Below are positions 5,061 through 53,403 of a DNA stretch of 57,165 nt, in pieces; the first letter of the stretch is position 1; each line of letters opens with the position of its first letter. Both the position numbers and the translations under genes were made by a program. The stretch covers positions 312,831 through 369,995 of the forward strand of contig BCKE01000016.1 in assembly GCA_001600495.1 (NCBI GenBank), given 5' to 3'. The notes under the pieces were generated by a model. That model made no database searches. It had not been told where the DNA came from and saw only the letters and a program-made list of their open reading frames with translations. Source of the DNA: Pilasporangium apinafurcum (taxonomy: Eukaryota; Oomycota; Peronosporomycetes; Pythiales; Pythiaceae).

Positions 5061-7088
5061 TTAGTCGCGCGTACTTTCCGTCCTGAGCTCTTCACCCTTG
5101 CGCTCAATGATCATCGAAGCCGCTTGGGTTAATTTGGTTAAGGTCGAGTATTGCGACAGCGTGATCTCTCTCAACATTGTGTCGATACAACAAAGCGAGC
5201 CCACCACTACACCATTCGTAGTTTGAATGGGGACACCAAAGTAGAATTTGAGGCCACCATTTTTCACATGCCCAAGGTTATGAAAACGAATATCGGCTTC
5301 CAGGTGCGAAACGAGAAGCGGTTTATCTCCCATCAATACATGCTGACAAATCATGTGATGACGAGGGAAGCTCGTCATTACAAAATCATCCCGAGTCGCT
5401 GACAAGATGAGCTGAGAGTCTCTGCCTATAATTGACACCATCGTACAGAAACATTTCATCTCTTCGCTGATGATATCGCAAATGATATCAAGTTCGCGCA
5501 TGCGGCCCAACCTCATCAACTGAAGACTTGCAATGGCATCGAGGCGTTTGGACTCATTGTCTGGGATAGGTGCGTAGCGAACATCGGGTTCTGATTCTAT
5601 AGATGCCTTGATAGGATACGTTCTAGTCTCTGAATTTGCAAGCACGCAATCTTCTAAGAGTGGAAGGTCATTAAGATAAGCATCCACTTCGCCAAGAATG
5701 TCGTACTCTTCTGAGTCGGAGCTGGCCGTGCTTGTACTTGCTCGCATCCGCGATGAATCCGCCGAGAAACAATCCTGAAATAAGTGCTGGATCACATTCA
5801 TTGTAGCGGTTCTCTGTTCTGGCTCTGATGATACTAGCAATTGCTTTTGCAAATGCTGCACCGCCTTTTTGCCTGATGGTAATGAGGTCTCAGCATCTGG
5901 TACAATTCGAGCAGATGTGCTTTGCTGTCCGACCTGAATGTGTGAGTATTCACAACGGTTTACACATTCCACACATCTGAGGCAGACCACCATCGTCGTA
6001 CAGTGGCCGGTGTAGGTTTCTATTGGTTCTCTTGGAGCACATTTATCACAGACGTTATAAGAGCACAATTGGCAGCGCTTCTTTTTCCATCCAGAAGGAA
6101 GCAGCAGCAGATTTTTGGTACAACTGATGCAATGTGTGTTCTTGATCTTGCAGGACGACAGATCCGCAAATACTTGTGTTCCTAATCGTCGGCGACGGAT
6201 AATCTCTGGCAAGTACTCCAAGCCTTTCGCTAGCGCAATCAATCGGCTTTTGGATGCTTTCGATGTTGCGAAGCCTTTGACATCTGTATTGGCGCCTGAG
6301 AAATGACCATGAAAGCTCAATCGCACCGTTGAACTGCTGCTGTTATTGTTATCATCAGCTCTTGTTGGTATGGCTACGTAGGCTGCGAAGAGATCGTGAA
6401 GATGGTCAACACGATTGTAAGAGACTTTGCCGCTAATGAGATCGTGTTCATGCATTGAAGTAAACGTGATGGTGAAGCCATTGTCGCCTTGATTTGGTAA
6501 GAAATGTTCCAAAAAACACCATTGCTCGTTGCGACTGAATACATTCGAGCGCACAAAGCAACTCGTCTTAACCGCTAGTTGATTGCCATGTGGAAGAACT
6601 TGTTCATTGTCATCACCTGTCAATATATGTACCACTGAGCCGTAAATGAATTGTTGTTGGTACAGTCCCTTCATCACTGAGTTGTGGTCATGATCAGTTG
6701 AAGCACGCAAGATGTTGGACAATTCTTGGGGACTACACGCGATCTCAATCGATGCAACCACTTCGAAACCAGTAGCAAAATCATCCGTTTGGAGCTGGCG
6801 AGAGTGTAATGTGAAACTCTGATTGTTGAGTCGATCATCACTGTTATTGTTTCCGTCGAGTCGACCCCATGACACCAGTGACGGAAGATCATCATGTGTG
6901 AGAATGGTACTTGTCTGGAAGTTCTGCGCTTTCTTGACAAGGTAAATGTCATCGACTCGAACCGTGCGATCGGAATAGTTTATCGATGATTTGTTGTTGG
7001 GGGTTCTTGGTGAAGTCATCGAGTCGACTTTGAAGACGGAACTATCGTTCGATCGATAGCTTCTGGGGTGAGTTGGCTTAACTTTCAT
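5061..7088 (-). CDS. START-like / FYVE-like zinc finger / GAF domain protein (copy A)
   Basis: The protein has 675 residues and is intronless, with the ATG at 7086-7088. The order is a Ser/Asn-rich N terminus, a region at about 95-300 resembling the START/Bet v1-like lipid-binding folds that often precede FYVE fingers in oomycetes (inference), and a FYVE-related zinc finger at about 313-380 with paired cysteines C320/C323, C339/C342 and C347/C350. A Ser-rich linker follows, then a GAF-like domain at about 528-662. A membrane-lipid or small-ligand sensing role is plausible but unproven. Residues 24-479 are encoded by DNA with no difference that I found from the inverted paralog at 9527-11563. 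The first 23 residues and the GAF end differ clearly, so the two genes share a converted core. The canonical FYVE basic motif R-(R/K)-HHCR is not evident, so phosphoinositide binding is uncertain. Confidence 0.85.
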   Translation of the reverse strand: MKVKPTHPRSYRSNDSSVFKVDSMTSPRTPNNKSSINYSDRTVRVDDIYLVKKAQNFQTSTILTHDDLPSLVSWGRLDGNNNSDDRLNNQSFTLHSRQLQTDDFATGFEVVASIEIACSPQELSNILRASTDHDHNSVMKGLYQQQFIYGSVVHILTGDDNEQVLPHGNQLAVKTSCFVRSNVFSRNEQWCFLEHFLPNQGDNGFTITFTSMHEHDLISGKVSYNRVDHLHDLFAAYVAIPTRADDNNNSSSSTVRLSFHGHFSGANTDVKGFATSKASKSRLIALAKGLEYLPEIIRRRRLGTQVFADLSSCKIKNTHCISCTKNLLLLPSGWKKKRCQLCSYNVCDKCAPREPIETYTGHCTTMVVCLRCVECVNRCEYSHIQVGQQSTSARIVPDAETSLPSGKKAVQHLQKQLLVSSEPEQRTATMNVIQHLFQDCFSADSSRMRASTSTASSDSEEYDILGEVDAYLNDLPLLEDCVLANSETRTYPIKASIESEPDVRYAPIPDNESKRLDAIASLQLMRLGRMRELDIICDIISEEMKCFCTMVSIIGRDSQLILSATRDDFVMTSFPRHHMICQHVLMGDKPLLVSHLEADIRFHNLGHVKNGGLKFYFGVPIQTTNGVVVGSLCCIDTMLREITLSQYSTLTKLTQAASMIIERKGEELRTESTRD
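5650..7024 (-). repeat. Left arm of a 1375-bp inverted repeat
   Basis: The reverse complement of this block matches 9591-10965. Paired coordinates always sum to 16615, so there is no indel. Every stretch I compared matched, and several antisense frames are identical in both copies. Identity stops abruptly at both ends, inside coding sequence. Confidence 0.9.
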
Positions 7089-9526
7089 GTCAGATCTTAG
7101 TGTATATCAGTCGAAGGCGCACACCGTCGGAGTGGTTTGTGTGCGCTGGCGACTAAAATTTGGAAACTGAGTGTAGTATACGGATCTCATGATCGAGCAA
7201 TGAATACTAAAAAATTGTGAGGCTAAAAATAACCAGTGTCTAATAACATACATGCTCCACATAAAAGCGTGAGATCTGTACTGTTCCTCAGACTGTTACC
7301 TGGACAGGAACAATGAAATATCGGACCAACCACACCCTGGCTCATATCCTATCACAGATACATTTCAGTAAGTTGGCTCTAATGCAACAGTCAAGCCGTG
7401 ATATGGAACGAAAGCTTATATAAGCGGAGATATACATATTCGGTGTATGGGTGATAGAACATGGCATTCTTTGCCATAGAGTGTGATAAAACTTTCCAGT
7501 TTTTCCCAGAACGGACCTAATTTTTCGCCTACAGTAAATTTACTTGCATATAATGAAGTAACATGAGCTGGATTATTGAGAGCGATATAGAACTATCATC
7601 AGTCACTCGCGATGTCCTATTGGTCATGAGTAAATCTGTACCGTTACAAGCTCCGTCGGACAGGAGATCAAACTGAACTGAACGAACCAAAGCACGAAAG
7701 ACACATACCACTAAAAAGTAAGCATGATGGTGAACCGGCTAAAGGAATCTCTCCCTAAGTGTGTGCGAGGCGATGAAATTGTGATTTCGCTAGAAAAAGA
7801 TGAAATTTTCGACGCTTTTGGCTTCATTTACTCTAAAGCTACAGCGCACGATGAAGCCGACATTGTGAAAGATGACTTGGCAATCTAACCTTTGTCAGCG
7901 TTCTGCGTGAAGGGTTATAAAAGTACATTGGTTGATTTGTACTGACAGAGGTTCAAAGAGCTTGATCCATCAGTACATGAAGAATTAAACATTGTTCTTG
8001 ACGGCTATGATAGGCTTAGCAACAGTCCGAGAAAATGCGGACGTATAAAAATAAGCAAGATTAGACATCATCTAACATGGAGTGGATATGCGGTGCTGGT
8101 CTGAAAACTGTCCTACGCACACCAGAGAAGAACGGTCAGACGTGGAAATCGGACAGTTTTTCGTGGGACTGCTTTGTTATTATTTATAACCGATTGATAT
8201 TGCACCTATACACCAGTGAGATGACGAAATAATATAACGAGTACAAGCACGTGCACGTTTAGTTTCTGTTGATGCAGATACCGCTCTGTTTCTTTGCGAG
8301 GGCGTGAGAGTAAGCACACGCTACCGCGTGCTCTCGCGGCTGGTAGTTACTGATTGTCAGACTGAATTAAAGTTATAAAATCTCACACCTCATCCGCAAC
8401 CACCTACTGATATTTGGATGTGTGAAAATTACAATACCAGAAAATGAAGAGGAAATAACCGTCTAGCACAGATGAACAATGCAACGCATAGGTTCCTTCC
8501 TCCTTACCACAATATTAAAAAGATTCTAACACATCTTTGATGGCATTTTGCCCTGGTGTTCCCAACGGTCAGCCAGCTGCACATCCATAAAAAAAGTTGA
8601 CGAAAATGGTAGAGGCTGGTCTATCATGGGGTAGCAGACAGATCCTAGAGGAATAGCTAGGCGGATCAAGTTTGAAACCTTAGCGACATCTATTGGAGTA
8701 ATAGCAAACTAGTAAACCACAAATTAGATTAAAAAAGAACGAGTATGGCGATGTCGTGTTATATTCGTGTTTCACTAAGTCTATCACACTACTGCTTAGT
8801 TGTCGTTCACATCAGATTTCGCGCAAAAACATATAAATTGCTCTGTCCCTTGGCACTGAATATACCCAACCTCACTCTAATGCGTCGTTTATTTCTTGAG
8901 AAATACATCCACGCATCATTTTAAGTCATTCAATACTGTCTTACGTCAAGTTGATTTCAGATTTACTATTGATGGTTGATCAGCAAGTAGTATGGTTCCG
9001 ATAGCTTTCATCAACACCAGCCACCAACGCGAAGTTTAGGGTATTCGGATGCTGTTGTATACACTGGTTACACCCATTTGTTGAATCTCTGCAGAGCTCG
9101 GATCCTCAGAGCATTATCCGGTGCAGCGAAGCGATATGATGAGGCGCCTGCCTCACATATTCTCGCCCACACTTCCCATAAGCTGATGATTTTCGTCAGA
9201 TCGAATAAATACGTTGAACGTTGAGAATAGTACATAACCTGAACAGAGTCATCTCATGTTGAGTCGTCTTGACAGTTAGTACCGGCCTGTTACTAGATGA
9301 ATAGTGTGTTAATGCAGTGCGATATGTTATTTTTGATTTTTTTCTTTTTTTACATTGGAGTGTCCGTTTACTTGCGCTTCTGGGTCATGTGGTTGATGTC
9401 CATTCGATGTGTCGTTGTTCGGAATTATAGCAGCAGCGCTCACTTTTAAATCTCCAGCCACCAATTCACAGATACAAACTCCGATCAAGGCCGTTCCTAT
9501 TACAAGCAATATTTTAGCCAACTGTA
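7089..9526. other. Spacer between the inverted FYVE/GAF genes; no supported gene
   Basis: This 2.4-kb stretch lies between the 5' ends of two divergently oriented paralogs, so it must hold both promoters. Frames are short and interrupted. A frame near 7725-7890 is open but short and matches nothing I know. A hydrophobic minus-strand frame at 9327-9521 has no ATG and is not accepted as a gene. No transposon ends were recognised. Confidence 0.4.
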
Positions 9527-35428: not shown

Positions 35429-36022
35429 ATGAAGTTCTTCACGGCTGTTGTGACGTCTTCACTGTTTGCAAGCATAGCTGCTGCGGCCGACTGCACACCT
35501 CAAGACCTCGCCTCATTAGCTACTAACCCTGAGACACGTACCTGTGTCGAGCAATCAGGTGTGAACTTTTCCACGTTAACGCAACCGCCAACGAGTGAAC
35601 AATCCGCGGCCATTTGCAATGTAGACGCCTGTACCAACGTCCTGAACAGCGTGTTGAGTAGTAATCCTCCGGATTGCGTGCTGCCTGGATCGAGTATCCT
35701 CTATCGATCGCAGTTTTTGGATGTGATTTCCACCTATTGCCAGAACAACAACGCTGGAGTGACCTCTGGTAGCTCAACTGGCTCTGTGGCAGCTGGTGAT
35801 AGCAGCAGCAATGCTGTTGTTGGTGATTCGAGTACAATCGGTACCGATAACTCTGCTTCCACCGTTGGAAGTGCCTCTTCCGTAGGCTCCGACACCGTAG
35901 GTTCCGGCTCGGCAGGAAGTGGATCGAAGAGTAAAGAAGCCAGTGGTGCAGCATCTACATCCTTCTCACTCGCGGTAGTCTCGAGTGTGGCTCTCGCTGT
36001 TGGTGGCGCTATGTTGTTCTAA
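35429..36022 (+). CDS. Elicitin-like secreted protein 1 with Ser-rich stalk and GPI-type tail
   Basis: The protein has 197 residues. A signal peptide of about 19 residues (MKFFTAVV...AAA) is followed by an elicitin domain with six cysteines in the family spacing: DC, TC, IC-x4-C, DC and YC. A Ser/Gly/Thr-rich stretch (about 110-175) then leads to a hydrophobic C terminus ending MLF, which looks like a GPI-attachment signal. Elicitins bind sterols and other lipids, which sterol-auxotrophic oomycetes must acquire, and several are recognised by plant immune systems. The long tail puts this with the wall- or membrane-anchored elicitin-like class rather than the small 98-residue secreted class. 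It is the first of three tandem paralogs. Confidence 0.9.
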   Translation: MKFFTAVVTSSLFASIAAAADCTPQDLASLATNPETRTCVEQSGVNFSTLTQPPTSEQSAAICNVDACTNVLNSVLSSNPPDCVLPGSSILYRSQFLDVISTYCQNNNAGVTSGSSTGSVAAGDSSSNAVVGDSSTIGTDNSASTVGSASSVGSDTVGSGSAGSGSKSKEASGAASTSFSLAVVSSVALAVGGAMLF

Positions 36023-36694
36023 TTGCTTTTGAGTAGCTGATACAGGCTGAAGGTTATTGTGAATCCTCTGTAACGTATGAGCATTCGTTGTTTTGGTTTA
36101 TTTTCTCGTTTGCCATCGTTTGGATCCGATCGACACCATCAAGGTCAGGAAGAATGCCCAGATATTAGTTGAATAAATGGCTGTGATGGATGTCGCTACA
36201 TTAAATGTAATTGATGAACAATGGACAGAAAAAAGTCTTGTCATCGTTTGTAAGCTTTCGTGTCATTTCGAAAATGTACATGGCAAAGAACAGTCAGTAA
36301 TGTACACAATTGGCGAATAGCCGTGTCAAACAGACGTCGACATTGTTTCCATTAGCAAAATTCTCTGCAACACACACGAAAACCTGGAAGCCGATTTTTG
36401 GCATTCTGTCCAATTTTTGAATGTAGAATCAGATGCAATTGACAGTATCAAATTTGTCTTATTGAGTGTCTCTATACAAAAACTATATACTCAGATCTGA
36501 GTCGACATACGATTTTTTCGTGTGGTCGAAAGATGATATGGACCCTAGTCCAGGTGATTCGTCTGGAAACATCCAGACAAATTGCTGCCGATGATCTCAC
36601 TCGCCAATTCTCAATTGGATCTCTATACCAACAGCTCGGCATATTGACATAAGCCAAGAGCTACGTGCTAACCTTCGCTCAAACCTATCAGCAA
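36023..36694. other. Intergenic between elicitin genes 1 and 2
   Basis: No gene or repeat is recognised. It presumably holds the terminator of the first elicitin gene and the promoter of the second. Confidence 0.4.
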
Positions 36695-37291
36695 ATGAAA
36701 CGCCACGCGTCCATCCTCCCGTTTGCGCTCTGCATCGCAGTCGGTCTTGTACCCACTACTACCAACGCCGCTACCTGCAATTTAAGTGACCTAAGCGTAT
36801 TCGCATCGGATCCAAACCTCGTGCTCTGTCAAACCGAAGCCCATGTCTCAATTTTGGAGCTCACTGGTACGCCGAATGATGAACAGCTTGCAGCGCTTTG
36901 TAGCACGAAAGCATGTGTAGAGCTTGTACGCGCCGTTCTGAAACTGAACCCTGAGGATTGTACGGTTCCTACACCTAGTGCACTGCTGTTGATGAGTGAA
37001 TTGGTCGAGCCAGTCGCCAAATATTGTGCAGCTGAAGGCATCGACGTCACGGTTTCTAGTTCTTCCTCTACTTCGTCTGAATCAAGTGGGGCGGATGTCG
37101 ATGTTGGCACCGTGACGGCGAGCTCTGCGACAAGCGAAGACGTTGATGCCGACGCTGGGTCACCCAGTAGCAGCAGTACAGAATTGACGCCCACACCTAC
37201 ACCAGATAGCGGAGCTTTATCATCGCGGTTCGCGATGAATATTGGATTCATGATTGTCGCAAGTGCGTCCGTCATGTCGTTGCTGATGTAG
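36695..37291 (+). CDS. Elicitin-like secreted protein 2 with acidic Ser/Thr stalk and GPI-type tail
   Basis: The protein has 198 residues from the ATG at 36695. The frame is open upstream to a GTG at 36665, but the ATG gives a much better signal peptide (MKRHASILPFALCIAVGL). The six elicitin cysteines are present (TC, LC, LC-x4-C, DC, YC), with the PNDEQLAALCSTKAC core. The stalk is rich in Ser, Thr, Asp and Val, and the hydrophobic C terminus ends in SLLM, as in GPI-anchored proteins. Loops and stalk differ from the first paralog, so the duplication is not recent. Confidence 0.88.
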   Translation: MKRHASILPFALCIAVGLVPTTTNAATCNLSDLSVFASDPNLVLCQTEAHVSILELTGTPNDEQLAALCSTKACVELVRAVLKLNPEDCTVPTPSALLLMSELVEPVAKYCAAEGIDVTVSSSSSTSSESSGADVDVGTVTASSATSEDVDADAGSPSSSSTELTPTPTPDSGALSSRFAMNIGFMIVASASVMSLLM

Positions 37292-37940: not shown

Positions 37941-38501
37941 ATGCAGCTCAAGTTCCCATCTCTTCTTGTGCTCGGTGCAGCACTCACTGCCCCATTGACA
38001 ACTGCCCAAGATTCTGATGCCCCAGTGTGTCAAATCAGTCAATTGAGCTTGATCGCTAGTAACCCCAATGTACAAGTCTGTCAAAATGACGTAGGCTTCG
38101 CCGCCGCCGATCTCGAAGGTGTTCCCACGGATGCGCAATTGGCCAAGGTCTGTGCTTCGGAAACTTGTGTCGAGCTCTTCAGTGAACTCTTGGCGCTCAA
38201 CATTACCGATTGCCACATCCCAACTGGTGGTGGAATTCTGTTCATCAGTGAATTTGTGAATCCAGTCGTAGAGTACTGCGCCAGTGAAGGCATTATCATC
38301 ACAGCATCGGGAGTATCATCCGGCTCAGGCTCGGGGTCGATTGCGACAGCCGGCACGGTTGACGCAGGTGATGATGAAAAAGCATCGGCCAGTGCGTCTG
38401 GATCGGCTGGTGACACACCTGCACCAACTGGTGCTGCATCACATGCTGCATTTGCCAGTGGGAGTGCGATGCTTGTAGCATTAATTGCGTCGTTGCTGTA
38501 A
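37941..38501 (+). CDS. Elicitin-like secreted protein 3 with short stalk and GPI-type tail
   Basis: The protein has 186 residues, with the ATG at 37941. Its signal peptide ends near TTAQ. The elicitin domain has six cysteines (VC, VC, VC-x4-C, DC, YC) and the family words PTDAQLAKVCASETC and NITDCHIP. A Gly/Ser/Ala-rich stalk and a hydrophobic end (VALIASLL) follow. It is closer to paralog 2 than to paralog 1: both have N-P at the second block, LFISEFV or LLMSELV before the last cysteine, and a C-A-x-E-G-I motif. A role in lipid or sterol binding at the cell surface is inferred from the family. Confidence 0.9.
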   Translation: MQLKFPSLLVLGAALTAPLTTAQDSDAPVCQISQLSLIASNPNVQVCQNDVGFAAADLEGVPTDAQLAKVCASETCVELFSELLALNITDCHIPTGGGILFISEFVNPVVEYCASEGIIITASGVSSGSGSGSIATAGTVDAGDDEKASASASGSAGDTPAPTGAASHAAFASGSAMLVALIASLL

Positions 38502-38854: not shown

Positions 38855-41590
38855 TCAATCCATATTCATCGGTTGCAATGTACTTTCGTCGACGACGATG
38901 TTGTCCATCTGAACTTGATTCAGTTTGCCCGCGAGATCGGCGATACGTTTTGGGATCCCTTGGGTGGCATGCAACGCTGGATGCGTGATGATCAGTTCGA
39001 GTTTGTCCGTAGATGTTGGCTTCTTAGCTCGTTTCAGTTCTTCTATCCTGATGGGTCGGCTCACAAGGCTAAGTAACATCTTGGCCGACATCTTGGCTGA
39101 AAAACGTGAGAGTGCATACACTCGTTCACCATGGCCAGCGACTGCCCCATCAGCGCTGATAGATGTTCTTGCTGTTAAGACGATCTTTAGTGACGCGTTG
39201 TTCGTCAGTAAGTTAGAGAGAAATGCACGGAATCGCTCCCGACGAACATCACTGCGAAGCAAGTAATCACATCCGTCCAATACCAAGAGCAGTTGCTGTG
39301 ATTTTAATTCTATTCGTCTTTTGTGTTTGTCGAGATGTTCGCGGATCATGGTATCCAGTCGCGTGAGCACACGGCACTTGGAGTTGGAGATGCTGACATG
39401 ACGGCGCACCAACTCGATATTTTCGTCCATTTCTTCTTGAGCCAAATCGGCAACAGAAAAGATACGCACGCCTCCCTCTGAGGTGATCCGTGGACCGACG
39501 TAATTCGCGACAGCATGTGCGACAGCAGTTTTCCCAATGCCTTCTTCTCCACAAATGGTAACCAAACGAGTGATTCGCGACTGTGTGATCATCAGCGCCA
39601 AGCAGATCTTGTACACCTCTACCGCCCGGTTACAAAACCCTTGACACATCGCTGGGAGATCGTCAAACCACAATTTCGGATAACGTTTCAAGCGCAACGT
39701 GCCCAGCTCAGAGTCTTTGTTGCCGTTGGCTTCCATCGTGTCCAATGGGAAAATAATCTCGTTGTGATCGCCATTTTCTGGAAGAAGCATGAACTTTTCA
39801 GCTACTTCCATGGGCCCGCGGATATTTGGTGACTTCGCCACGGCCTGCTGTGCGATCTTGAAACTCGCACCAACAGATTTTCCGGTCGCGAGTGCAAGAT
39901 AAAACGACCGCGTGAATTCAATTGCAGCATAATCTTCAATTTTCTGATTGATGCGGACACCAATAACGTGTGGGATCCCACACGCTACAAATGCATACGC
40001 CAGTGGTGCAGATGAACAGGCCGATACAAACGCGAGCCGCAATGGAGACTCACCAAAGTTCCCTCCGGCTGAGAAAAGCTCCTGCAGACTACTATGGGGA
40101 ATCGGATGCACCAATCCCATACCATCTTCAAAATACAAGTGTTTGTCGTCACCATGACCCGAAAAATGCAGTGCCCGACAACCGAGTGTAATTATGGACC
40201 GGAAGTTCTCCGTATTTGCAAATCTGGCACTCACATTGATCTGTCTCGGATACAAAAATGTCTTCGACGCACCCTCATCACCTTCCATTGTAACTGAGCT
40301 CGGTGCAGGCTGCTTTGCATACTGAGAGGCTTCAATCAAGCTTTGCTTTAAAATCGAGTACTCTCGCTTCACATCTAGCTCTGAGATGGGGTGATACTTG
40401 CCGTGAACATCTTTCCCTACTAACGGAGTCGAAAATAATACCCCCAGTGTATATTCTTGCAGAGATCTAGGTTGTTGAGAATGATTTTGCGACTCTCCGA
40501 TGACCGCATGTCGTACATTTCCTTGGTATGGTATCGGTGTAGCTGATACCTGTGCACCACGAACATGGGGATCCTCCACTATGTAGCCCAACAACACGTT
40601 CCCTTGTCTCGAAGAAAGTAATGTGATCTTTTGTCCGTCCGATAATTTGTATGGTCTGTCTTTTTCGATCTTGACCCCATTGATTCGAATGCCATTGGTA
40701 CTTTTATCAGTAATAAATACTGCAGATTGATTAGTTTGTGGATCTGCCATGCACTCCACTAAGCAATGCGTCCGACTCAGTTTAATGGGGTCGATACCAG
40801 ACGTTTTGCGGTCAAAAATGTTCACAAATCGATCACGTCCAAGCACGACCCGACCACTGTTGCGATGCATTTCAATACGGTATAGACCATGTTGCTCCAA
40901 ATCATTCTTCTGGTAAGCCGTGATGGCACGGTCGACTTCTGGGTGGAGCACTAGTCGCATGACGCACATTTCTGGACTCTCTTCCAACGTTTGCGTACAT
41001 TCTTGGGTGTTTTGCTGAGAGATCGAAAGGACTTCCATCATATTCTGGGAGCCTTCTTTCATCGCTTGATACTGTTCTTCTGGTGTTGGACGATCAACGG
41101 CATGCATGCCCATCGTTGGTCCTACACTCTTCGATGAAGTCATCATAAATGGATTATTGTTCATCATAGTGACGTCGCCACCATCCATGAATCCTGGTGT
41201 GGGAGCAGACATGCGGAACCTTTTGCTGGCGCTACCGCCATTTAACAAATCGCTATCCGGTAATTCTCGTGCGTTCTTCATTCCAGAAAAAGTGGACGTT
41301 GAGGACGGCGGTGTCGGCACAGGCGTAGTGGTAAACGGCGACGGACCCGTGGTACGCATAGTCGATGGACTGGATGCCCACATTTGCAACACTGATCCTC
41401 CTCCTGTTCGCATGTCCTGCAAATTATTAGGGGAGTTGGTGGCGCCAGTGATCGCGTGTGTCAGATCTGGAGTGACCAAGTCTCCGCTGATTGCCTCACC
41501 TTTGCGTTTCCTGACCTCTAGCATCGCGCTGTTGTCCAGAAACGGGTGGAAATCCGCCACAACGACATGCCCGCCATTGCTCTCCGCCAT
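38855..41590 (-). CDS. FHA - CHAT (caspase-like) protease - STAND/NB-ARC-like NTPase protein
   Basis: The protein has 911 residues from the first ATG at 41590; the frame is open a little further upstream but only through a TTG. A low-complexity Ser/Thr/Pro-rich N terminus (about 40-170) comes first. An FHA domain lies at about 235-335, with GRVVLGRD, LSRTHC and STNGIRING, the residues used to bind phosphothreonine. A CHAT domain lies at about 385-590, with the catalytic histidine in HFSGHG (H479) and cysteine in VSACSS (C525). A P-loop ATPase lies at about 660-890. It has Walker A GEEGIGKT (681-688), Walker B LLLVLDGCD (767-775), a sensor-like IVLTAR (803-808) and a GIPKRIADLAG segment (878-888) resembling the NB-ARC GLPL motif. 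No repeat sensor domain (LRR, WD, TPR) follows. The likely role is a signal-activated peptidase, but the substrate is unknown. Confidence 0.85.
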   Translation of the reverse strand: MAESNGGHVVVADFHPFLDNSAMLEVRKRKGEAISGDLVTPDLTHAITGATNSPNNLQDMRTGGGSVLQMWASSPSTMRTTGPSPFTTTPVPTPPSSTSTFSGMKNARELPDSDLLNGGSASKRFRMSAPTPGFMDGGDVTMMNNNPFMMTSSKSVGPTMGMHAVDRPTPEEQYQAMKEGSQNMMEVLSISQQNTQECTQTLEESPEMCVMRLVLHPEVDRAITAYQKNDLEQHGLYRIEMHRNSGRVVLGRDRFVNIFDRKTSGIDPIKLSRTHCLVECMADPQTNQSAVFITDKSTNGIRINGVKIEKDRPYKLSDGQKITLLSSRQGNVLLGYIVEDPHVRGAQVSATPIPYQGNVRHAVIGESQNHSQQPRSLQEYTLGVLFSTPLVGKDVHGKYHPISELDVKREYSILKQSLIEASQYAKQPAPSSVTMEGDEGASKTFLYPRQINVSARFANTENFRSIITLGCRALHFSGHGDDKHLYFEDGMGLVHPIPHSSLQELFSAGGNFGESPLRLAFVSACSSAPLAYAFVACGIPHVIGVRINQKIEDYAAIEFTRSFYLALATGKSVGASFKIAQQAVAKSPNIRGPMEVAEKFMLLPENGDHNEIIFPLDTMEANGNKDSELGTLRLKRYPKLWFDDLPAMCQGFCNRAVEVYKICLALMITQSRITRLVTICGEEGIGKTAVAHAVANYVGPRITSEGGVRIFSVADLAQEEMDENIELVRRHVSISNSKCRVLTRLDTMIREHLDKHKRRIELKSQQLLLVLDGCDYLLRSDVRRERFRAFLSNLLTNNASLKIVLTARTSISADGAVAGHGERVYALSRFSAKMSAKMLLSLVSRPIRIEELKRAKKPTSTDKLELIITHPALHATQGIPKRIADLAGKLNQVQMDNIVVDESTLQPMNMD

Positions 41591-41704: not shown

Positions 41705-42180
41705 TTAACCTTTATTCCCCATTTCTCCCACCGGTAGGATATACTTTGACGTATTTTCCCCTCTCCATCGATAGAAGCAGAAACTTGTTTCCAATTCTCC
41801 GCAATGACCGCCATTCTTCTTTTCAAGAACGGATGCGAAGCGATGACAGTGAATGCACGAGGAAATCGAGTGCGTGGAGAATCAAAGTGACTGTCCAGAA
41901 AATGTGGTACGGTAGTATCGGTGCGAAAGAGAGGCAAAGATCACAGATAGGACTGTAAGGAACACTACAACAAAGACTTGTTCTGATTGTGGGAGAATCA
42001 ATCACAATATGAAGCACCAAAAAGTCTTTCAGTGCCCTCACTGCAAGTTCGTTGTCGATAGGGATGTCGATGCTGCGAGGAACATCTTTCTTACGAATGA
42101 ACACCTACTCTCCTTGGCTCATCGACTCCAGAGGTCGAAGACGCCTACTCCGCCGTGTCTAGTCTAAGCTAGCTTTTGTT
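41705..42180 (+). pseudogene. Relic C of a TnpB/OrfB-like (Fanzor-type) nuclease element
   Basis: It starts with TTAACCTTTATTCCCC (41705-41720), the shared terminal motif. The C-terminal zinc ribbon and RuvC-III motif are intact in one frame from about 41961 to a stop at 42165: TTKTCSDCGR, then CPHCKF, then DRDVDAARNI. The region between the left end and the zinc ribbon is too short to hold the RuvC-I and RuvC-II parts, so the copy is internally deleted. Beyond the coding end, the word CTAGTCT-AGCTAGCTTTTG is shared with relic A. It sits about 100 bp upstream of the FHA-CHAT start, in the divergent promoter region. Confidence 0.75.
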
Positions 42181-43296: not shown

Positions 43297-43716
43297 TCAA
43301 TGCATGGAGACGACTTTCCTTACCTCTGAGAACATGCGAAAACCGCCTTTCAGTACACGAACTTTAGGCTTTCTATCTGCGTCGCCCAGCACTCCAGGAA
43401 GCCGGTCATGCACGCGTCCTGCACAAAAAGGCCCTCGTCCATTGCTGTTGAAACAATGGAAGACGATCGTGTCTTCCTCGGCATATTTTTGGAGAAAGGA
43501 ATCGACAAAGCTTTCATCTTCAAAGTTCACTTTGGGGATATTCACAGCACCTTTGATGAATCCACCCGACGTACCAGGATCTCGGACATCCACAACAAGC
43601 GGACGACGAGTAGTGGTGCTGGTGCTTTGCATCAACTCGCCCAGTTCAGTTGCTTCCAAGCGCGGCACATCTGGTGCCACAAGCGCTATTGCTGCTGCTG
43701 CGGTGATGTCTGCCAT
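43297..43716 (-). CDS. Rhodanese/Cdc25-type phosphatase or arsenate reductase (Acr2-like)
   Basis: This is a small 139-residue single-domain protein with its ATG at 43714-43716. The rhodanese fold is marked by LVVDVRDPG (40-48), GGFIKGAVNIP (51-61) and the active-site loop HCFNSNGRGPFCA (87-99). The loop fits C-x5-R (C88, R94), the seven-residue type found in Cdc25 phosphatases and Acr2/ACR2-type arsenate reductases, rather than the shorter sulfurtransferase loop. The RGP-x-CA continuation is typical of Acr2-like proteins. It is probably cytosolic. Either protein-phosphatase or arsenate-reductase activity is possible. It stands alone, 520 bp from a divergent PDR transporter that could share regulatory DNA. 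Confidence 0.87.
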   Translation of the reverse strand: MADITAAAAIALVAPDVPRLEATELGELMQSTSTTTRRPLVVDVRDPGTSGGFIKGAVNIPKVNFEDESFVDSFLQKYAEEDTIVFHCFNSNGRGPFCAGRVHDRLPGVLGDADRKPKVRVLKGGFRMFSEVRKVVSMH

Positions 43717-44234: not shown

Positions 44235-47200
44235 ATGACTTTCGATGCCCAGCTTATGGACGCCAAGCACATGCTGTTGTCGCTTCGACCAGAGGAGCTC
44301 CATGAGCAGATCGCCAATAAAATCGAAGTAGCCCGCGGGAAGCCACTACCGCAAATGGAAGTGCGATTTCAGAACGTTTCCATCTCTGCTGACATCGTCG
44401 TGGCGGATACTGATGGCAAATCGGAATTGCCAACACTTGTGAACCATATGAAAAAGAGCTTCAGCAAACTCACTGGCAAACAAAAGAGCCGTATTGTGAA
44501 AAAGCAAATCCTACATAACGTCAGTGGTATCTTTAAACCAGGCACTATCACGCTCGTATTAGGGCAACCTGGATCAGGTAAATCAGCGTTGATGAAGCTG
44601 CTGAGTGGCCGATTCCCCATGTCGAAGAACATTCACATCGCCGGCGAGATCATGTACAACGGCGTGTCAAGTGACGAGCTCCGCAAGCGACTACCGCAGT
44701 TTGTGTCGTACGTGACGCAGAACGATAAGCACTTCCCCACACTGACGGTACGAGAGACACTAGAATTTGCACACGCCTGTTGTGGTGAAGGATTATCTAC
44801 GGAAGCGAAACAGCAATTTGTGAATGGTACTCCCCATGAAAACAAAGCTGCTGTAGACATCGCTCAAGCCCTCCAAACCCACCATCCTACCGTAGCGATC
44901 CAGCAGTTGGGGCTAACCAATTGCCAAGACACGATCGTCGGAGATGCCATGCTGCGTGGGATCTCTGGAGGTGAACGCAAGCGCGTGACGACCGGTGAAA
45001 TGTACTTTGGCGACAAGTACGTGATGTTCATGGACGAGATCAGCACAGGGCTCGATAGTGCTGCGACGTTTGATATCATCAAGACCCAGCGCAGCATTGC
45101 CAAAGAATTCCGCAAGACCATCGTCATTTCGCTGTTGCAACCAGCACCTGAGGTGTTTGCGTTGTTTGATGACGTGCTGATCCTGAACGAGGGGCAAGTA
45201 ATGTACCATGGGCCGACCGACCAGGTTGTCGACTACTTTGGCGGATTGGGTTTCACGTGTCCATCGAATCGAGATGTGGCTGATTTCTTATTGGATTTGG
45301 GTACATACCAGCAATACCAATATCAACAGACGTGTTCACCCAGCAACGGTATCCCTCGTGAACCAAGTGACTTTGCGCTAAGTTTTACACGCTCATCGAT
45401 CCATCGTGCAATGTTGGATGGCCTGAATGCCCCCATTGATCCAGCACTGCTCGATGACAACGTACACCACATCGAAGCACTACCAGATTTTCACCAATCG
45501 TTTCTGGAAAGCACACTGACGCTGATGAAGCGCCAGGCCAAGATCACGGCACGGAACACGGCGTTTCTGAAAGGCCGTGCGTTCACAGTCATTATCATGG
45601 GGCTGATCTACTCGAGTGTGTTCTTCCAATTTGATGTCAAGAACGTGCAAGTCGTGATGGGCATCATCTTTTCCGCAGTGCTTTTCCTCGCGCTGGGCCA
45701 AGCCGCGCAGCTTCCGTTAAACTTTACAGCACGTACGATTTTCTATAAGCAACGTGCTGCCAACTTTTACCGGACGTCGTCTTTTGTGGTATCGAACTCC
45801 GTGAGTCAGATCCCAATTGCACTCATGGAGAGTCTCCTCTTTGGCTCGCTGGTCTACTGGATGTGTGGCTTCCTCGATGATGTCAAGAGCTACGTGATCT
45901 ACCAGATCCTACTATTGCTCACAAGTCTGGCATTTGCGTCATGGTTTTTCTTCTTGTCCGCGATTGCACCCGATCTACACGTGGCCAAACCAATGGCTAT
46001 GCTGTCGATCATGATTTTCATCTCATTTTCGGGGTTTATGGTCACGCAAGGCCAAATCCCTTCGTATTTTATTTGGGTCTTCTGGCTCGATCCCATCGCA
46101 TGGTGCGTGCGTAGCATTGCCGTGAATGAGTATCAGAATGAGCGGTACAATGTCTGCGAGTACGATGGCGTGCCATATTGTGACATGTACGGCAAGAAGA
46201 TGGGAGAATATTCGCTCAGTTTGTTTGATGTGGAATCAGGAAATGAATGGATCTGGTTCGGTATGGTGTTTACCATTGGGGCGTATGTGGTCTTTATGAC
46301 GCTTTCATGCCTTGTTCTCGAATACAAGAGATATGAGGCCCCTGAACACGTGAGTGTCGATTTGGAGGACCGATTTGCCCAGAACAATGACAAGGAAGCT
46401 ATTGTTGGAGGTAATGATGAGTACGGACTCGTGCAAACACCAACAGGCTCCCACGTTGATGTGATCTTAGAAGTCAAGGAATCCCGCGAGAAAAACTTCA
46501 TTCCTATCACTGTCGCATTTAAAGATCTTTGGTACACTGTCCCTGACCCAGCTCAACCAAAAGAGACGATCGATTTGCTGAAAGGAATCAGTGGTTATGC
46601 TTTGCCTGGCACAATCACTGCCTTGATGGGATCTTCAGGTGCTGGTAAAACGACATTGATGGATGTGATTGCTGGCAGAAAGACTGGTGGCAAGATTCGT
46701 GGTCAAATCTTACTGAACGGGTACGAAGCAACCGACTTGGCTATTCGTCGATCCACGGGTTACTGTGAACAAATGGATATCCATTCGGAAGCTGCGACTA
46801 TTCGAGAAGCATTGACATTCAGTGCTTTTCTTCGTCAAGGTGCTGATATTCCAGATAGTAAGAAGTACGATTCGGTGAATGAGTGTTTGGATTTGTTGGA
46901 TCTGCATCCAATTGCAGATCAAATCATTCGTGGTAGCTCTGTGGAACAGATGAAGCGGTTGACAATCGGTGTAGAATTGGCTGCACAACCGAGTGTGATT
47001 TTCTTGGATGAACCTACGAGTGGTTTGGACGCTCGATCAGCAAAGGTGATTATGGATGGTGTGCGTAAAGTGGCAAACACTGGTCGCACGATCTTGTGTA
47101 CTATTCATCAACCTTCATCTGAAGTATTCCAAGTGTTTGATAGTTTATTGTTGTTGAAGCGTGGTGGTGAGACGGTGTTTTTCGGTGACTTGGGTGAAAA

Positions 47201-48329
47201 TTCGAGTGAGTTGATCAACTACTTTGAATCGATTGAGAATGTGACAAAGTTGGAAGATGGATATAATCCAGCGACTTGGATGTTGGAAGTGATTGGTGCT
47301 GGTGTTGGCAATGATAATGGGAAGAATACCGATTTCGTTTCAATTTTCCAAGCAAGTGAGCATAAGCGTATTTTAGATGAAAACCTGAATCGTGAGGGTA
47401 TCTCTCGTCCAGCAGTTGGTGTTCCAGCTTTAGAATTTGGGAAGAAGCGTGCTGCGACAGAGATGACACAGATGAAGTTCTTGGTCATGCGTTTCTTCCA
47501 GATGTACTGGCGTACTCCATCGTATAACGTAACGAGATATGTGATCTGCCTGATCCTGGCACTCATCTTCGGGCTGATTTCAGTTGAACAAGAGTATCAT
47601 TCCTATCAAGGTGTCAACACTGGCTTGTCCATGGTGTTTGCGTCTACAATATTTATCGGGCTGGTATCATTCAACAGCGTACTTCCGTTGGCGTCTGAGG
47701 AACGTGCCTCTTTCTACCGTGAACGAGCCTCGCAGACCTACAACGCGTTTTGGTACTTTATTGGCGGAACCGTTGCTGAAATCCCCTACGTGTTTACCAG
47801 TTCATTACTATACACGGCCGTTTATTTCTCAATGGCTCACTTTACTGGAGTAGTGCGATTTTTCACTTTTTGGTTCCACATGTCGCTGCAAGTGCTCTTG
47901 CAAACGTACACAGGGCAGTTCCTCGCCTATGTCTTGCCGAGCGTCGAGGTCGCGGCGATCGTCGGTGTGCTACTCAACTCGATCTACATTCTGTTCATGG
48001 GCTTCAACCCTCCTGCAAACGAGATTCCAACGGGATACAAGTGGCTGTACCACATTATACCGCAAAAGTATTCGCTGGCGATTCTTTCTGCTATCATTTT
48101 TAGTGATTGCCCTAGTGATGGTGATGATAGCGATTTGGGCTGCCGACATATGCAGAACACGCCTCCTACCATTCCACAAGACATGACGGTGAAGGAATAT
48201 ACAGAGGAGGTGTTCCTGATGAAGCACGACGAGATCTGGCAGAATTTTGCGATCCAGTTGGGCTTCCTCGTGCTCTTCCGCGTGTTTGCACTGCTCGCGC
48301 TGCGGTTTGTCAATCATCAAAAGCGATAA
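44235..48329 (+). CDS. Full-size ABCG/PDR-type ABC transporter 1
   Basis: The protein has 1364 residues and is intronless, with the ATG at 44235. The order is NBD1, six-helix membrane domain, NBD2, membrane domain, the reverse topology typical of pleiotropic drug resistance pumps. NBD1 has Walker A GQPGSGKS (110-117), signature SGGERKRVTTG (about 244) and Walker B MFMDEISTGLD. NBD2 has GSSGAGKTT (about 799) and FLDEPTSGLD (about 922), with a modified signature SSVEQMKRLTIG. These pumps export hydrophobic drugs, plant defence compounds or lipids at the plasma membrane. Residues about 734-1098 come from a DNA block matching transporter 2 without a visible difference, while the flanking parts differ, and the block has more T-ending codons than the rest of the gene. 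Confidence 0.95.
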   Translation: MTFDAQLMDAKHMLLSLRPEELHEQIANKIEVARGKPLPQMEVRFQNVSISADIVVADTDGKSELPTLVNHMKKSFSKLTGKQKSRIVKKQILHNVSGIFKPGTITLVLGQPGSGKSALMKLLSGRFPMSKNIHIAGEIMYNGVSSDELRKRLPQFVSYVTQNDKHFPTLTVRETLEFAHACCGEGLSTEAKQQFVNGTPHENKAAVDIAQALQTHHPTVAIQQLGLTNCQDTIVGDAMLRGISGGERKRVTTGEMYFGDKYVMFMDEISTGLDSAATFDIIKTQRSIAKEFRKTIVISLLQPAPEVFALFDDVLILNEGQVMYHGPTDQVVDYFGGLGFTCPSNRDVADFLLDLGTYQQYQYQQTCSPSNGIPREPSDFALSFTRSSIHRAMLDGLNAPIDPALLDDNVHHIEALPDFHQSFLESTLTLMKRQAKITARNTAFLKGRAFTVIIMGLIYSSVFFQFDVKNVQVVMGIIFSAVLFLALGQAAQLPLNFTARTIFYKQRAANFYRTSSFVVSNSVSQIPIALMESLLFGSLVYWMCGFLDDVKSYVIYQILLLLTSLAFASWFFFLSAIAPDLHVAKPMAMLSIMIFISFSGFMVTQGQIPSYFIWVFWLDPIAWCVRSIAVNEYQNERYNVCEYDGVPYCDMYGKKMGEYSLSLFDVESGNEWIWFGMVFTIGAYVVFMTLSCLVLEYKRYEAPEHVSVDLEDRFAQNNDKEAIVGGNDEYGLVQTPTGSHVDVILEVKESREKNFIPITVAFKDLWYTVPDPAQPKETIDLLKGISGYALPGTITALMGSSGAGKTTLMDVIAGRKTGGKIRGQILLNGYEATDLAIRRSTGYCEQMDIHSEAATIREALTFSAFLRQGADIPDSKKYDSVNECLDLLDLHPIADQIIRGSSVEQMKRLTIGVELAAQPSVIFLDEPTSGLDARSAKVIMDGVRKVANTGRTILCTIHQPSSEVFQVFDSLLLLKRGGETVFFGDLGENSSELINYFESIENVTKLEDGYNPATWMLEVIGAGVGNDNGKNTDFVSIFQASEHKRILDENLNREGISRPAVGVPALEFGKKRAATEMTQMKFLVMRFFQMYWRTPSYNVTRYVICLILALIFGLISVEQEYHSYQGVNTGLSMVFASTIFIGLVSFNSVLPLASEERASFYRERASQTYNAFWYFIGGTVAEIPYVFTSSLLYTAVYFSMAHFTGVVRFFTFWFHMSLQVLLQTYTGQFLAYVLPSVEVAAIVGVLLNSIYILFMGFNPPANEIPTGYKWLYHIIPQKYSLAILSAIIFSDCPSDGDDSDLGCRHMQNTPPTIPQDMTVKEYTEEVFLMKHDEIWQNFAIQLGFLVLFRVFALLALRFVNHQKR
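46434..47528 (+). repeat. 1095-bp direct repeat inside PDR transporter 1
   Basis: It matches 51508-52602 at a constant offset of 5074 bp, with no difference in the stretches compared and identical antisense frames. A second shared patch of 44 bp is at 47700-47743 (partner 52774-52817). Confidence 0.9.
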
Positions 48330-49290: not shown

Positions 49291-52200
49291 ATGGCAATCC
49301 CATCAAAGGACGACCAAGGCATATCGTCCAAACCTACGATTGAATACCATAATGCAAAGACACTACTAGCACATGGACCAGATGAACTGCATGGACACAT
49401 CTCCAGTAGAGTCGAAATCGCGTTGGGCAAGTCGCTCCCGCAAATGGAAGTGCGGTTCCACAACATTTCCCTTACGGCTAAGATCCCAGTCTCGGATGAC
49501 AACAACAAGAACCGCTCGGCGGAACTACCAACGATCGCAAACCACCTCAAAAAATCTGCTGGCAAGTTCTCGACAAAGAAGCACGTCGGTACCAAGCAGA
49601 TCTTGAAAAATGTAAGCGGGGTGCTTAAACCTGGCACCATCACATTGGTTCTGGGCCAGCCTGGGTCCGGCAAGTCTGCACTTATGAAGCTACTAAGTGG
49701 CCGGTTCCCCATGCAGAAGAATATCTCACTCGAGGGAGATATCTCTTATAATGGAACACCACGTGAAGAACTCGCAAAACGGCTGCCGCAGTTTGTCGCC
49801 TACGTGACGCAACGCGACAAGCACTTCCCCACCCTCACCGTCAAGGAAACGCTCGAGTTTGCACATGCGTGCTGTGGTGGCGAACTTTCGAACCGAGTGG
49901 CGCAGCACTTTGTGAATGGCACACCCGAAGAGAACAAGGCTGCCTTGGATGCTGCACGCGCACTCTACAAACATTTCCCGGACGTTGTAATTCAACAATT
50001 GGGACTGGAAAACTGTCAGGACACGATTGTCGGTAATGCCATGCTGCGTGGTGTCTCTGGTGGTGAACGCAAGCGCGTCACAACCGGTGAAATGCAGTTC
50101 GGCAACAAGTACGTCACGCTCATGGACGAGATCAGTACGGGGCTCGATAGTGCCGCGACGTTCGATATTATTACGACACAGCGCAGTATCGCCAAGAAAT
50201 TCCGCAAGACCATCGTCATTTCACTATTGCAGCCTTCGCCGGAAGTTTTTGCGCTCTTCGACAATGTGATGATTTTAAACGAAGGCCAGCTTATGTATCA
50301 CGGCCCTATTGACCAAGTCGTCCAGTATTTCGCTGACTTGGGGTTCGTTTGCCCTCCACGTCGAGATGTTGCAGACTTCCTCTTAGATTTGGGCACTGAT
50401 CAGCAGTATCAATACCAAATATCGAACTATCCAAGTGACAAGGCTATGCCACGGCGAGCAAGTGAATTTGCGGCGCTCTTCGTACGCTCATCTATTCATG
50501 ACAAGATGCTCGAGGATCTGAACCGTCCATTTGATCCCTTGTTACTGCAAGACAAGGAGAAGCATGTCGATCCATTACCAGAGTTTCACCAAAACTTTTG
50601 GGAAAGCACAGCGACGCTCATGGCGCGCCAGACCAAGGTCACCCTGCGTAATACGGCGTTCTTAAAGGGCAGAGGCATCATGGTCGTCATCATGGGGCTC
50701 ATGTACTCGAGTGTATTTTACCAATTCGACGTTGCTAATGCACAAGTGGTGATGGGTATCATTTTTGCTGCAGTTTTGTTCCTGGCACTAGGCCAAGCAT
50801 CTCAGATTCCGACTTTCTTGGCCGCAAGAGATGTCTACTACAAACAACGTGCAGCCAATTTCTTCCGCACATCGTCTTATGTGCTTTCGAGTTCGGTCAG
50901 TCAATTACCATTGGCATTGATGGAGAGTGTGCTGTTCGGAACACTCGTGTACTGGATGTGTGGATTTGTGCCCACGGCTCAGGCGTACTTGATCTACGAA
51001 CTGATGCTGTTCGTGACCAACTTGGCATTTGCGGCCTGGTTCTTCTTCTTGTCCTCGGTGTCTCCAGACTTGCACGTCGCCAAACCATTGTCCATGGTGT
51101 CAGTGCTCTTTTTCATCCTGTTTGCTGGCTTTGTAGTGTCTAAAAACCAAATTCCGGACTATTTCATCTGGATTTACTGGATCAACCCCATTGCATGGTG
51201 CATTCGCAGTTTGGCCGTCAACCAATACCGCGATGATCGCTTTGAAGTGTGTGTCTACGATAACGTGGATTACTGTTCGAATTACAACATGAAGATGGGG
51301 GAATATTCGCTCAGTTTGTTCGAAGTGCCCTCGGAGAAGGAATGGCTCTGGTATGGCATGATCTTCATGGCATTCACCTACATTTTCTTCATGGCATTAT
51401 CCTACTTTGCCTTGGAATATCACCGCTATGAAAGCCCCGAAAACGTAACAGTCGACGGTGAAGATGACGATCATTTCCGTATGAGTGATGAAGAATATGG
51501 ACTAGTACAAACACCAACAGGCTCCCACGTTGATGTGATCTTAGAAGTCAAGGAATCCCGCGAGAAAAACTTCATTCCTATCACTGTCGCATTTAAAGAT
51601 CTTTGGTACACTGTCCCTGACCCAGCTCAACCAAAAGAGACGATCGATTTGCTGAAAGGAATCAGTGGTTATGCTTTGCCTGGCACAATCACTGCCTTGA
51701 TGGGATCTTCAGGTGCTGGTAAAACGACATTGATGGATGTGATTGCTGGCAGAAAGACTGGTGGCAAGATTCGTGGTCAAATCTTACTGAACGGGTACGA
51801 AGCAACCGACTTGGCTATTCGTCGATCCACGGGTTACTGTGAACAAATGGATATCCATTCGGAAGCTGCGACTATTCGAGAAGCATTGACATTCAGTGCT
51901 TTTCTTCGTCAAGGTGCTGATATTCCAGATAGTAAGAAGTACGATTCGGTGAATGAGTGTTTGGATTTGTTGGATCTGCATCCAATTGCAGATCAAATCA
52001 TTCGTGGTAGCTCTGTGGAACAGATGAAGCGGTTGACAATCGGTGTAGAATTGGCTGCACAACCGAGTGTGATTTTCTTGGATGAACCTACGAGTGGTTT
52101 GGACGCTCGATCAGCAAAGGTGATTATGGATGGTGTGCGTAAAGTGGCAAACACTGGTCGCACGATCTTGTGTACTATTCATCAACCTTCATCTGAAGTA

Positions 52201-53403
52201 TTCCAAGTGTTTGATAGTTTATTGTTGTTGAAGCGTGGTGGTGAGACGGTGTTTTTCGGTGACTTGGGTGAAAATTCGAGTGAGTTGATCAACTACTTTG
52301 AATCGATTGAGAATGTGACAAAGTTGGAAGATGGATATAATCCAGCGACTTGGATGTTGGAAGTGATTGGTGCTGGTGTTGGCAATGATAATGGGAAGAA
52401 TACCGATTTCGTTTCAATTTTCCAAGCAAGTGAGCATAAGCGTATTTTAGATGAAAACCTGAATCGTGAGGGTATCTCTCGTCCAGCAGTTGGTGTTCCA
52501 GCTTTAGAATTTGGGAAGAAGCGTGCTGCGACAGAGATGACACAGATGAAGTTCTTGGTCATGCGTTTCTTCCAGATGTACTGGCGTACTCCATCGTATA
52601 ACTTGACTCGTTTCATCATCTCTCTCATCTTGGCGCTGCTGTTCGGCTTGGTCTACATCAATGCGGAATACTCGACTTATCAGGGCATTAATGGTGGTGT
52701 CGGTATGGTCTTTTTGTCGACTGTGTTCATCGGCATCATTTCCTTCAATAGTGTGCTTCCCATTGCCTCAGAAGAACGTGCCTCTTTCTACCGTGAACGA
52801 GCCTCGCAGACCTACAATGCATTGTGGTATTTTGTAGGCTCAACCGTTGCTGAAATCCCTTATGTCTTCCTCAGCACACTCTTGTTTACCGCGGTGTTCT
52901 ACCCCATGGTGGGATTCACCGGCGCTAGCCGCTTCTTCTTCTACTGGCTCAACACGGCATTGCATGTGCTGCTGCAGACTTACATCGGGCAGTTTTTGTC
53001 CTACTTCATGCCCAGTGTGGAAGTCGCGGCAATCATCGGTGTGCTATTGAACTCGATCTTCATCTTGTTCATGGGCTTCAATCCGCCGGGTGATTCCATT
53101 CCAACGGGGTACAAGTGGCTCTACCACATCACGCCTCAAAAATATACTATGTCGATCCTCACAGCCATTATCTTTGGTGACTGCCCCAGCGATGGTGTTG
53201 GTAGTGAACTGGGCTGCCAACAGATTCTGAACGCACCCGCGACCATTCCAGAGGGATTGAGCGTCAAGCAGTATGTCGAAAGCGTGTTCTTGATGAAGCA
53301 CAGCAACATTTGGCGGGATTTCGGGATCATCATCGCATTTATCGTCATCTTCCGTGTACTGGCGTTGCTGTCATTGCGCTATGTCAATCACCAAAAGAGA
53401 TAG
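49291..53403 (+). CDS. Full-size ABCG/PDR-type ABC transporter 2
   Basis: The protein has 1370 residues and is intronless, with the ATG at 49291. It has the same NBD-TMD-NBD-TMD layout as transporter 1 and the same motifs: GQPGSGKS, SGGERKRVTTG, LMDEISTGLD, GSSGAGKTT and FLDEPTSGLD. Both proteins end in VNHQKR. The N-terminal half and last membrane domain are clearly diverged from transporter 1, while residues about 740-1104 (NBD2 with its flanks) are identical. The NBD2 signature is SSVEQMKRLTIG here too, as expected if one copy overwrote the other. Probably a plasma-membrane efflux pump for xenobiotics or host defence compounds; the diverged membrane domains suggest different substrates. 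Confidence 0.95.
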   Translation: MAIPSKDDQGISSKPTIEYHNAKTLLAHGPDELHGHISSRVEIALGKSLPQMEVRFHNISLTAKIPVSDDNNKNRSAELPTIANHLKKSAGKFSTKKHVGTKQILKNVSGVLKPGTITLVLGQPGSGKSALMKLLSGRFPMQKNISLEGDISYNGTPREELAKRLPQFVAYVTQRDKHFPTLTVKETLEFAHACCGGELSNRVAQHFVNGTPEENKAALDAARALYKHFPDVVIQQLGLENCQDTIVGNAMLRGVSGGERKRVTTGEMQFGNKYVTLMDEISTGLDSAATFDIITTQRSIAKKFRKTIVISLLQPSPEVFALFDNVMILNEGQLMYHGPIDQVVQYFADLGFVCPPRRDVADFLLDLGTDQQYQYQISNYPSDKAMPRRASEFAALFVRSSIHDKMLEDLNRPFDPLLLQDKEKHVDPLPEFHQNFWESTATLMARQTKVTLRNTAFLKGRGIMVVIMGLMYSSVFYQFDVANAQVVMGIIFAAVLFLALGQASQIPTFLAARDVYYKQRAANFFRTSSYVLSSSVSQLPLALMESVLFGTLVYWMCGFVPTAQAYLIYELMLFVTNLAFAAWFFFLSSVSPDLHVAKPLSMVSVLFFILFAGFVVSKNQIPDYFIWIYWINPIAWCIRSLAVNQYRDDRFEVCVYDNVDYCSNYNMKMGEYSLSLFEVPSEKEWLWYGMIFMAFTYIFFMALSYFALEYHRYESPENVTVDGEDDDHFRMSDEEYGLVQTPTGSHVDVILEVKESREKNFIPITVAFKDLWYTVPDPAQPKETIDLLKGISGYALPGTITALMGSSGAGKTTLMDVIAGRKTGGKIRGQILLNGYEATDLAIRRSTGYCEQMDIHSEAATIREALTFSAFLRQGADIPDSKKYDSVNECLDLLDLHPIADQIIRGSSVEQMKRLTIGVELAAQPSVIFLDEPTSGLDARSAKVIMDGVRKVANTGRTILCTIHQPSSEVFQVFDSLLLLKRGGETVFFGDLGENSSELINYFESIENVTKLEDGYNPATWMLEVIGAGVGNDNGKNTDFVSIFQASEHKRILDENLNREGISRPAVGVPALEFGKKRAATEMTQMKFLVMRFFQMYWRTPSYNLTRFIISLILALLFGLVYINAEYSTYQGINGGVGMVFLSTVFIGIISFNSVLPIASEERASFYRERASQTYNALWYFVGSTVAEIPYVFLSTLLFTAVFYPMVGFTGASRFFFYWLNTALHVLLQTYIGQFLSYFMPSVEVAAIIGVLLNSIFILFMGFNPPGDSIPTGYKWLYHITPQKYTMSILTAIIFGDCPSDGVGSELGCQQILNAPATIPEGLSVKQYVESVFLMKHSNIWRDFGIIIAFIVIFRVLALLSLRYVNHQKR
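51508..52602 (+). repeat. 1095-bp direct repeat inside PDR transporter 2
   Basis: Partner of 46434-47528. The boundaries fall in coding sequence before and after NBD2, and the gene spacing is unchanged, as expected for non-reciprocal conversion. Confidence 0.9.

Follow-up and report, generated by a model that had tools for sequence, protein, structure and literature searches.

What does a phosphothreonine-reading FHA domain do at the front of a caspase-like protease that carries its own ATPase? The question is raised by a gene in a 57,165-nucleotide stretch of DNA from the oomycete Pilasporangium apinafurcum (contig BCKE01000016.1; here called the window), which lies on the minus strand at 38855..41590 and encodes, in a single exon running from ATG 41590 to the stop codon at 38855-38857, a protein of 911 residues with an FHA domain, a CHAT protease domain and a STAND ATPase of NB-ARC/NACHT type. 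The original prediction for this locus, made from the DNA sequence, was a candidate caspase-like signalling or immunity-type system. The answer that we favour, at a probability of roughly 45%, is a nuclear single-chain protease in which a molecule's phosphorylated tail binds to the FHA domain of its neighbour and thereby clusters and activates the CHAT domains. Note that the open frame extends 18 codons upstream of the ATG, up to a TTG, and that the start of the homologue P0004 matches the position of the gene's start in the alignment.

The presence of all three domains with their key residues in one 911-residue protein, as originally proposed, is confirmed by Pfam, by the structure model and by the alignment of homologues. 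Pfam identifies FHA (1.4e-9, residues 249-324), CHAT (5.2e-9, 453-591) and NACHT (1.3e-7, 675-839), each beyond its curated cut-off, and matches in the PDB agree with the three assignments. In the AlphaFold single-chain model, the predicted local distance difference test (pLDDT) score over 10-residue blocks is 88-97 in the FHA region (211-340), 55-96 in CHAT (381-620; above 70 in most blocks) and 74-96 in the ATPase (651-900). At E <= 1e-3 the family profile retrieved only three distinct sequences from the PDB, namely a SAVED-CHAT protein (1.8e-5) and the FHA domains of MEK1 (2e-4) and CHK2 (2.4e-4). A protein search returned 46 matches, 30 of which, 27 from named oomycete species, were aligned with the window protein (alignment A1); eleven orthologues (one of them named, and partial) and the five lowest matches were left out, and a wider alignment (A2) used 44 of the 46. 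At E <= 1e-3, Pfam recognizes CHAT in all 31 members of A1, NACHT in 28 and FHA in 26.

Within the FHA domain (residues 209-342, 40565..40966), delimited by Pfam, model, PDB matches and alignment, R252, S272, H275, N299 and G300 are invariant in A1, and G251 is kept in 28 rows, with an arginine in the other three; the predicted phosphothreonine-binding signature (GR, SxxH, NG) thus accompanies the profile match. The CHAT domain (residues 380-617, 39740..40453) is found by Pfam and by structure matches alike, and its predicted catalytic residues His479 (40154..40156) and Cys525 (40016..40018) are both present in every one of the 31 aligned proteins; A2 has them in 44 of its 45 rows, with a gap in the remaining one. 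In a profile alignment the dyad region falls onto the HFIGHG and NAC motifs of PDB entry 8tl0, the closest CHAT structure, which bears the title of an activated filament. The mean identity of the CHAT columns is 0.86 over 25 rows, namely those of A1 without the truncated P0019 and the five rows from Saprolegniales. The STAND ATPase (residues 646-905, 38876..39655), again assigned by Pfam and structure matches, shows a Walker A motif, GEEGIGKT (681-688, 39527..39550; K687 and T688 in 30/31 rows, the other lacking the region), a Walker B motif, LLLVLD (767-772, 39275..39292; D772 in 29/31, two gaps), and the sequence GIPK (878-881, 38948..38959; P880 in 29/31, two gaps), which we take to be GLPL-like, all of them on an NB-ARC-like fold. 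By sequence, Pfam favours NACHT, and NB-ARC is not among the Pfam matches of the protein. Only six residues follow residue 905, the chain stops six residues past the last residue aligned to NRC4, and a Pfam scan of the 911 residues for a C-terminal repeat sensor (LRR, WD40, TPR, ANK) yielded no repeat family. Neither outcome by which the original prediction would have fallen, no CHAT fold in profile or structure results or loss of the dyad from every orthologue, arose. As far as domains, folds and conserved residues can indicate, the idea of kinase-gated, caspase-like signalling is well supported; the immunity-type part of the original prediction is less favoured, for reasons given below.

The N-terminal tail (residues 1-177, 41060..41590) is mostly modelled with low confidence and poorly conserved, with a mean column identity of 0.36 in the 25 rows. 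A motif scan of the tails found two basic motifs resembling nuclear localization signals (NLS), RKRK (27-30, 41501..41512) and KRFR (123-126, 41213..41224), and such a motif is present in 28 of 30 tails as against 0.4-15% of shuffles. Directly N-terminal of the FHA domain, the alignment reveals an SQ/TQ cluster (residues 181-200, 40991..41050) consisting of SQ181, SQ191, TQ195 and TQ199. An SQ/TQ cluster domain is defined by at least three S/T-Q per 100 residues, and here four fall within 20. The leucine at position +3 after T199 presumably resembles the T68 site of Chk2. The four sites are conserved in 24, 23, 25 and 22 of the 25 rows, respectively, so that within residues 1-208 all four S/T-Q sites are kept in at least 80% of the rows, versus one of 42 other S/T-X sites. 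Residues 188-203 have pLDDT values below 50, yet their mean identity is 0.85. Throughout A1 the tail segment contains at least two S/T-Q in all 31 rows and at least three in 28, and for 29 of the 31 no more than 5% of shuffles reach the same clustering.

Cluster, NLS-like motifs and a family of paralogues, none of which figured in the original prediction, point to a nuclear, checkpoint-style input. S/T-Q is the target motif of ATM/ATR-type kinases, and Chk2 has an SQ/TQ cluster domain before its FHA domain that is phosphorylated by ATM/ATR and bound by the FHA domain of another Chk2 molecule, as described in PMC4296918. The layout of the window protein is the one by which Chk2 self-assembles, and by analogy a PI3K-like kinase, ATR-type or a relative, would phosphorylate the cluster, whereupon a second molecule would bind the phosphothreonine of the tail through its FHA domain, and pairs or chains would form. 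The NB-ARC-type ATPase would then bind ATP and fix the assembly, and this would bring the CHAT domains into an active arrangement for cutting one or more nuclear substrates, with checkpoint or cell- or nucleus-fate signalling instead of pathogen sensing as the outcome. The kinases Chk2, Rad53 and MEK1 share the FHA fold with the window protein, whose output differs from theirs in being a CHAT protease and a STAND ATPase instead of a kinase. SQ191, TQ195, TQ199, R252, C525 and K687 are the residues at which this mechanism can be tested.

PI3K-like kinases are present in the genome, as evidenced by six FAT matches, and UME and FAT matches within one 3121-residue frame on contig C7 mark an ATR-type kinase, if UME is, as we assume, the mark of ATR. 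The TAN domain of ATM-type kinases gave no match, in a search in which the control genomes were silent as well and which is therefore uninformative. A profile search for FHA gave 21 matches at 18 places. Two of these are the window gene and its paralogue on C58; at the other 16 (14 in one scan, with 513 N in locus L022, and two only in open stretches of at least 300 residues) no FHA-kinase was recognised by a catalytic-loop pattern, a scan that can miss a diverged or exon-split kinase. Two pattern matches (L017, L028) were judged by eye not to be kinase-like. The lineage may be one without a recognisable Chk2-type FHA-kinase, and the result at these 16 places is a weak hint that the FHA-CHAT-ATPase protein fills the seat of Chk2.

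Besides the FHA form with its dyad, of which this genome holds one full-length copy, four further CHAT-ATPase genes were found. One of them (C83, L002:853-3810) has the CHAT-ATPase core in common with the window protein (91.5 bits against the latter, 304.5 bits against the core profile), but a C-terminal STAT-type linker and SH2 domain replace the N-terminal FHA domain and SQ/TQ tail, and it would be a phosphotyrosine counterpart of the FHA protein. It also occurs in Phytophthora, Pythium, Lagenidium, Saprolegnia, Aphanomyces and Achlya, and P0043 belongs to this group; no Albugo protein was among the named matches of the search. SH2 domains of STAT proteins pair reciprocally. As Chk2-type FHA and STAT-type SH2 domains both serve reciprocal phospho-pairing elsewhere, the analogy suggests a common principle in which phosphorylation would drive assembly of the protease core. 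The second paralogue (C58, L013:1201-4356, minus strand, ten exons) is again an FHA-CHAT-ATPase, with SQ and TQ ahead of the FHA domain; it has retained FHA and Walker A and lost both catalytic residues. No homologue of it was found at E <= 0.001 among 7994 candidates scored, and it may therefore be specific to its lineage or have diverged too far. The remaining two (C63, L014:2727-6959; C13, L016 about 2046-7362) are TPR-repeat CHAT-ATPase genes with intact HFSGHG and (S/N)SCHS motifs.

Several observations weigh against assembly through the tail. The S/T-Q sites lie at shifted positions in the Saprolegniales, where two proteins (P0040, P0041) have them at a density no higher than chance; the conserved sites share a single conserved block and are not independent, and both Albugo rows lack an NLS-like motif. 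FHA domains read the sites of many kinases, and in Foldseek searches those of spliceosomal Pml1 and of DDL outrank Chk2, with the FHA folds of RNF8, MDC1 and kinesin matching likewise. The SQ/TQ block could instead be conserved as a docking motif, and both this range of folds and the fact that the S/T-Q positions are fixed only outside the Saprolegniales favour a possible, if rather unlikely, alternative: the FHA domain would dock the protease on another phosphoprotein of the cell cycle, spliceosome, chromatin or trafficking machinery, CHAT would cut locally, and the block would be a partner-binding or regulatory motif. Such docking accounts neither for the position of the tail's four conserved S/T-Q sites, all of them directly before the FHA domain, nor for the assembly-type ATPase that is linked to it. 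Note that resistosomes are among the nearest structures of this ATPase, although the match ties with p97, ORC and other AAA+ rows. A winged-helix part belongs to the layout of true NLRs, and with the chain ending near residue 905 it may be absent here.

The resemblance to resistosomes is also what lends some weight to a cell-death or non-self sensor, akin to the gasdermin-cutting fungal CHAT-NLRs or bacterial CHAT-STAND proteins. In fungal NLRs with a CHAT domain, some of them beside gasdermins, this caspase-like domain likewise precedes a STAND ATPase within a single eukaryotic chain (PMC10197012, PMC12881547, PMC9815663), and the SH2 paralogue has relatives of CHAT or CHAT-STAND type in Nostoc, Ardenticatenia and Anaerolineae. 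The window protein differs from the fungal proteins in the FHA domain and SQ/TQ tail ahead of CHAT, in the lack of WD40, TPR or ANK repeats and in its deep conservation; for gasdermin (PF04598), a search of the genome gave no match, and as the controls were silent too it is uninformative. Plant NLR resistosomes, Apaf-1 and CED-4, which other AAA+ families nearly equal in score, differ from it in that here the protease is fused in cis and a phospho-reader replaces the repeat sensor. With one full-length copy in this genome, no repeat sensor, no PADLOC defence model matching the protein (0 families at E <= 1) and a core strongly conserved from Saprolegniales to Phytophthora, including species that we take to be obligate biotrophs, we consider an immune role improbable. 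That the fold can persist without its dyad is illustrated by the C58 paralogue, and the protein might accordingly be a phospho-regulated ATPase scaffold whose CHAT domain has no proteolytic role, but the retention of H479 and C525 described above makes this very unlikely. A separase stand-in has a negligible chance of being correct and was rejected, as the genome contains a canonical gene of this family (Peptidase_C50, 7.6e-33, C13:527314-527978); no Peptidase_C50 was among the Pfam families matching the 911-residue protein at E <= 1.

Phospho-driven assembly of the protease may be part of something larger, although we regard this extension as unlikely: an oomycete family of one-chain, phospho-assembled 'apoptosomes', in which the FHA form with its SQ/TQ tail would take a phosphothreonine input from ATR/ATM-type kinases, the STAT-type SH2 form would take a phosphotyrosine input, and the C58 paralogue might act as a decoy. 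The FHA form would act downstream of ATR, in the place that Chk2 holds in other eukaryotes, and could remove damaged or surplus nuclei of the multinucleate hypha. In animals, the link from DNA-damage kinases to caspases passes through several separate proteins. Here a checkpoint-type switch, an assembly ATPase and a caspase-like protease are joined in a single protein that is conserved across a large lineage of eukaryotes, and if it works as its architecture suggests, it would couple protein cutting directly to cell-stress kinases. It would then offer an entry point to whatever carries out the regulated fate of oomycete cells or nuclei, and show one way of rewiring NLR-type proteases to signals from endogenous kinases. 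Caspases and metacaspases (PF00656) gave no match in six frames, a result that is not taken as absence, as the control responded in one of 14 genomes.

The protein class is new as a variant, NLR-type CHAT proteases being already known. Its homologues, those with a source name coming from Phytophthora, Nothophytophthora, Peronospora, Hyaloperonospora, Peronosclerospora, Globisporangium, Pythium, Albugo, Saprolegnia, Thraustotheca and Aphanomyces, are named hypothetical, unnamed, uncharacterized or FHA domain-containing protein in the databases, and among the literature matches listed, on CHAT together with FHA or NACHT domains or with oomycetes or stramenopiles, there was nothing on this protein. 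The SAVED-CHAT protein of 8tl0 differs from it, judging from the entry title, in having SAVED as the partner instead of FHA and no STAND ATPase. The five lowest of the 46 matches are more distant and without source names. P0042 and P0044 have stretches resembling leucine-rich repeats (LRR) joined to the same CHAT domain, and together with P0105, where such a stretch is also fused to the CHAT(-ATPase) core, are probably of protist origin; LRR-receptor kinases in oomycetes are mentioned in a 2010 survey (PMC2939053). Of 128 sequences, 40 entered a tree, in which a source name backs the label 'bacterial' in only three of seven rows and the label LRR comes from weak or precomputed matches. Two peptide patterns matched 68 stretches in bacterial genomes, none of which was confirmed as an FHA-CHAT-ATPase at that sensitivity.

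The co-conserved substrate envisaged in the original prediction was not evident among the 16 neighbouring open reading frames of the window scanned with Pfam. Three tandem elicitin genes adjoin the gene (Pfam Elicitin; 35429-36022, 1.1e-16; 36665-37291, 8e-17; 37941-38501, 1.6e-18). Just upstream of it, on the plus strand at 41916-42167, lies a remnant with CSDCG...CPHC and DRDVDAARN motifs, which we liken to the zinc-ribbon end of TnpB/Fanzor proteins; an open reading frame with a Cas12f1-like TNB domain at L016:8447-9283 looks related to it. Further along are two tandem PDR-type ABC transporters (44235-48329 and 49291-53403), and a small rhodanese-domain reading frame (43297-43716, minus strand) is situated between these and the FHA-CHAT-ATPase gene.
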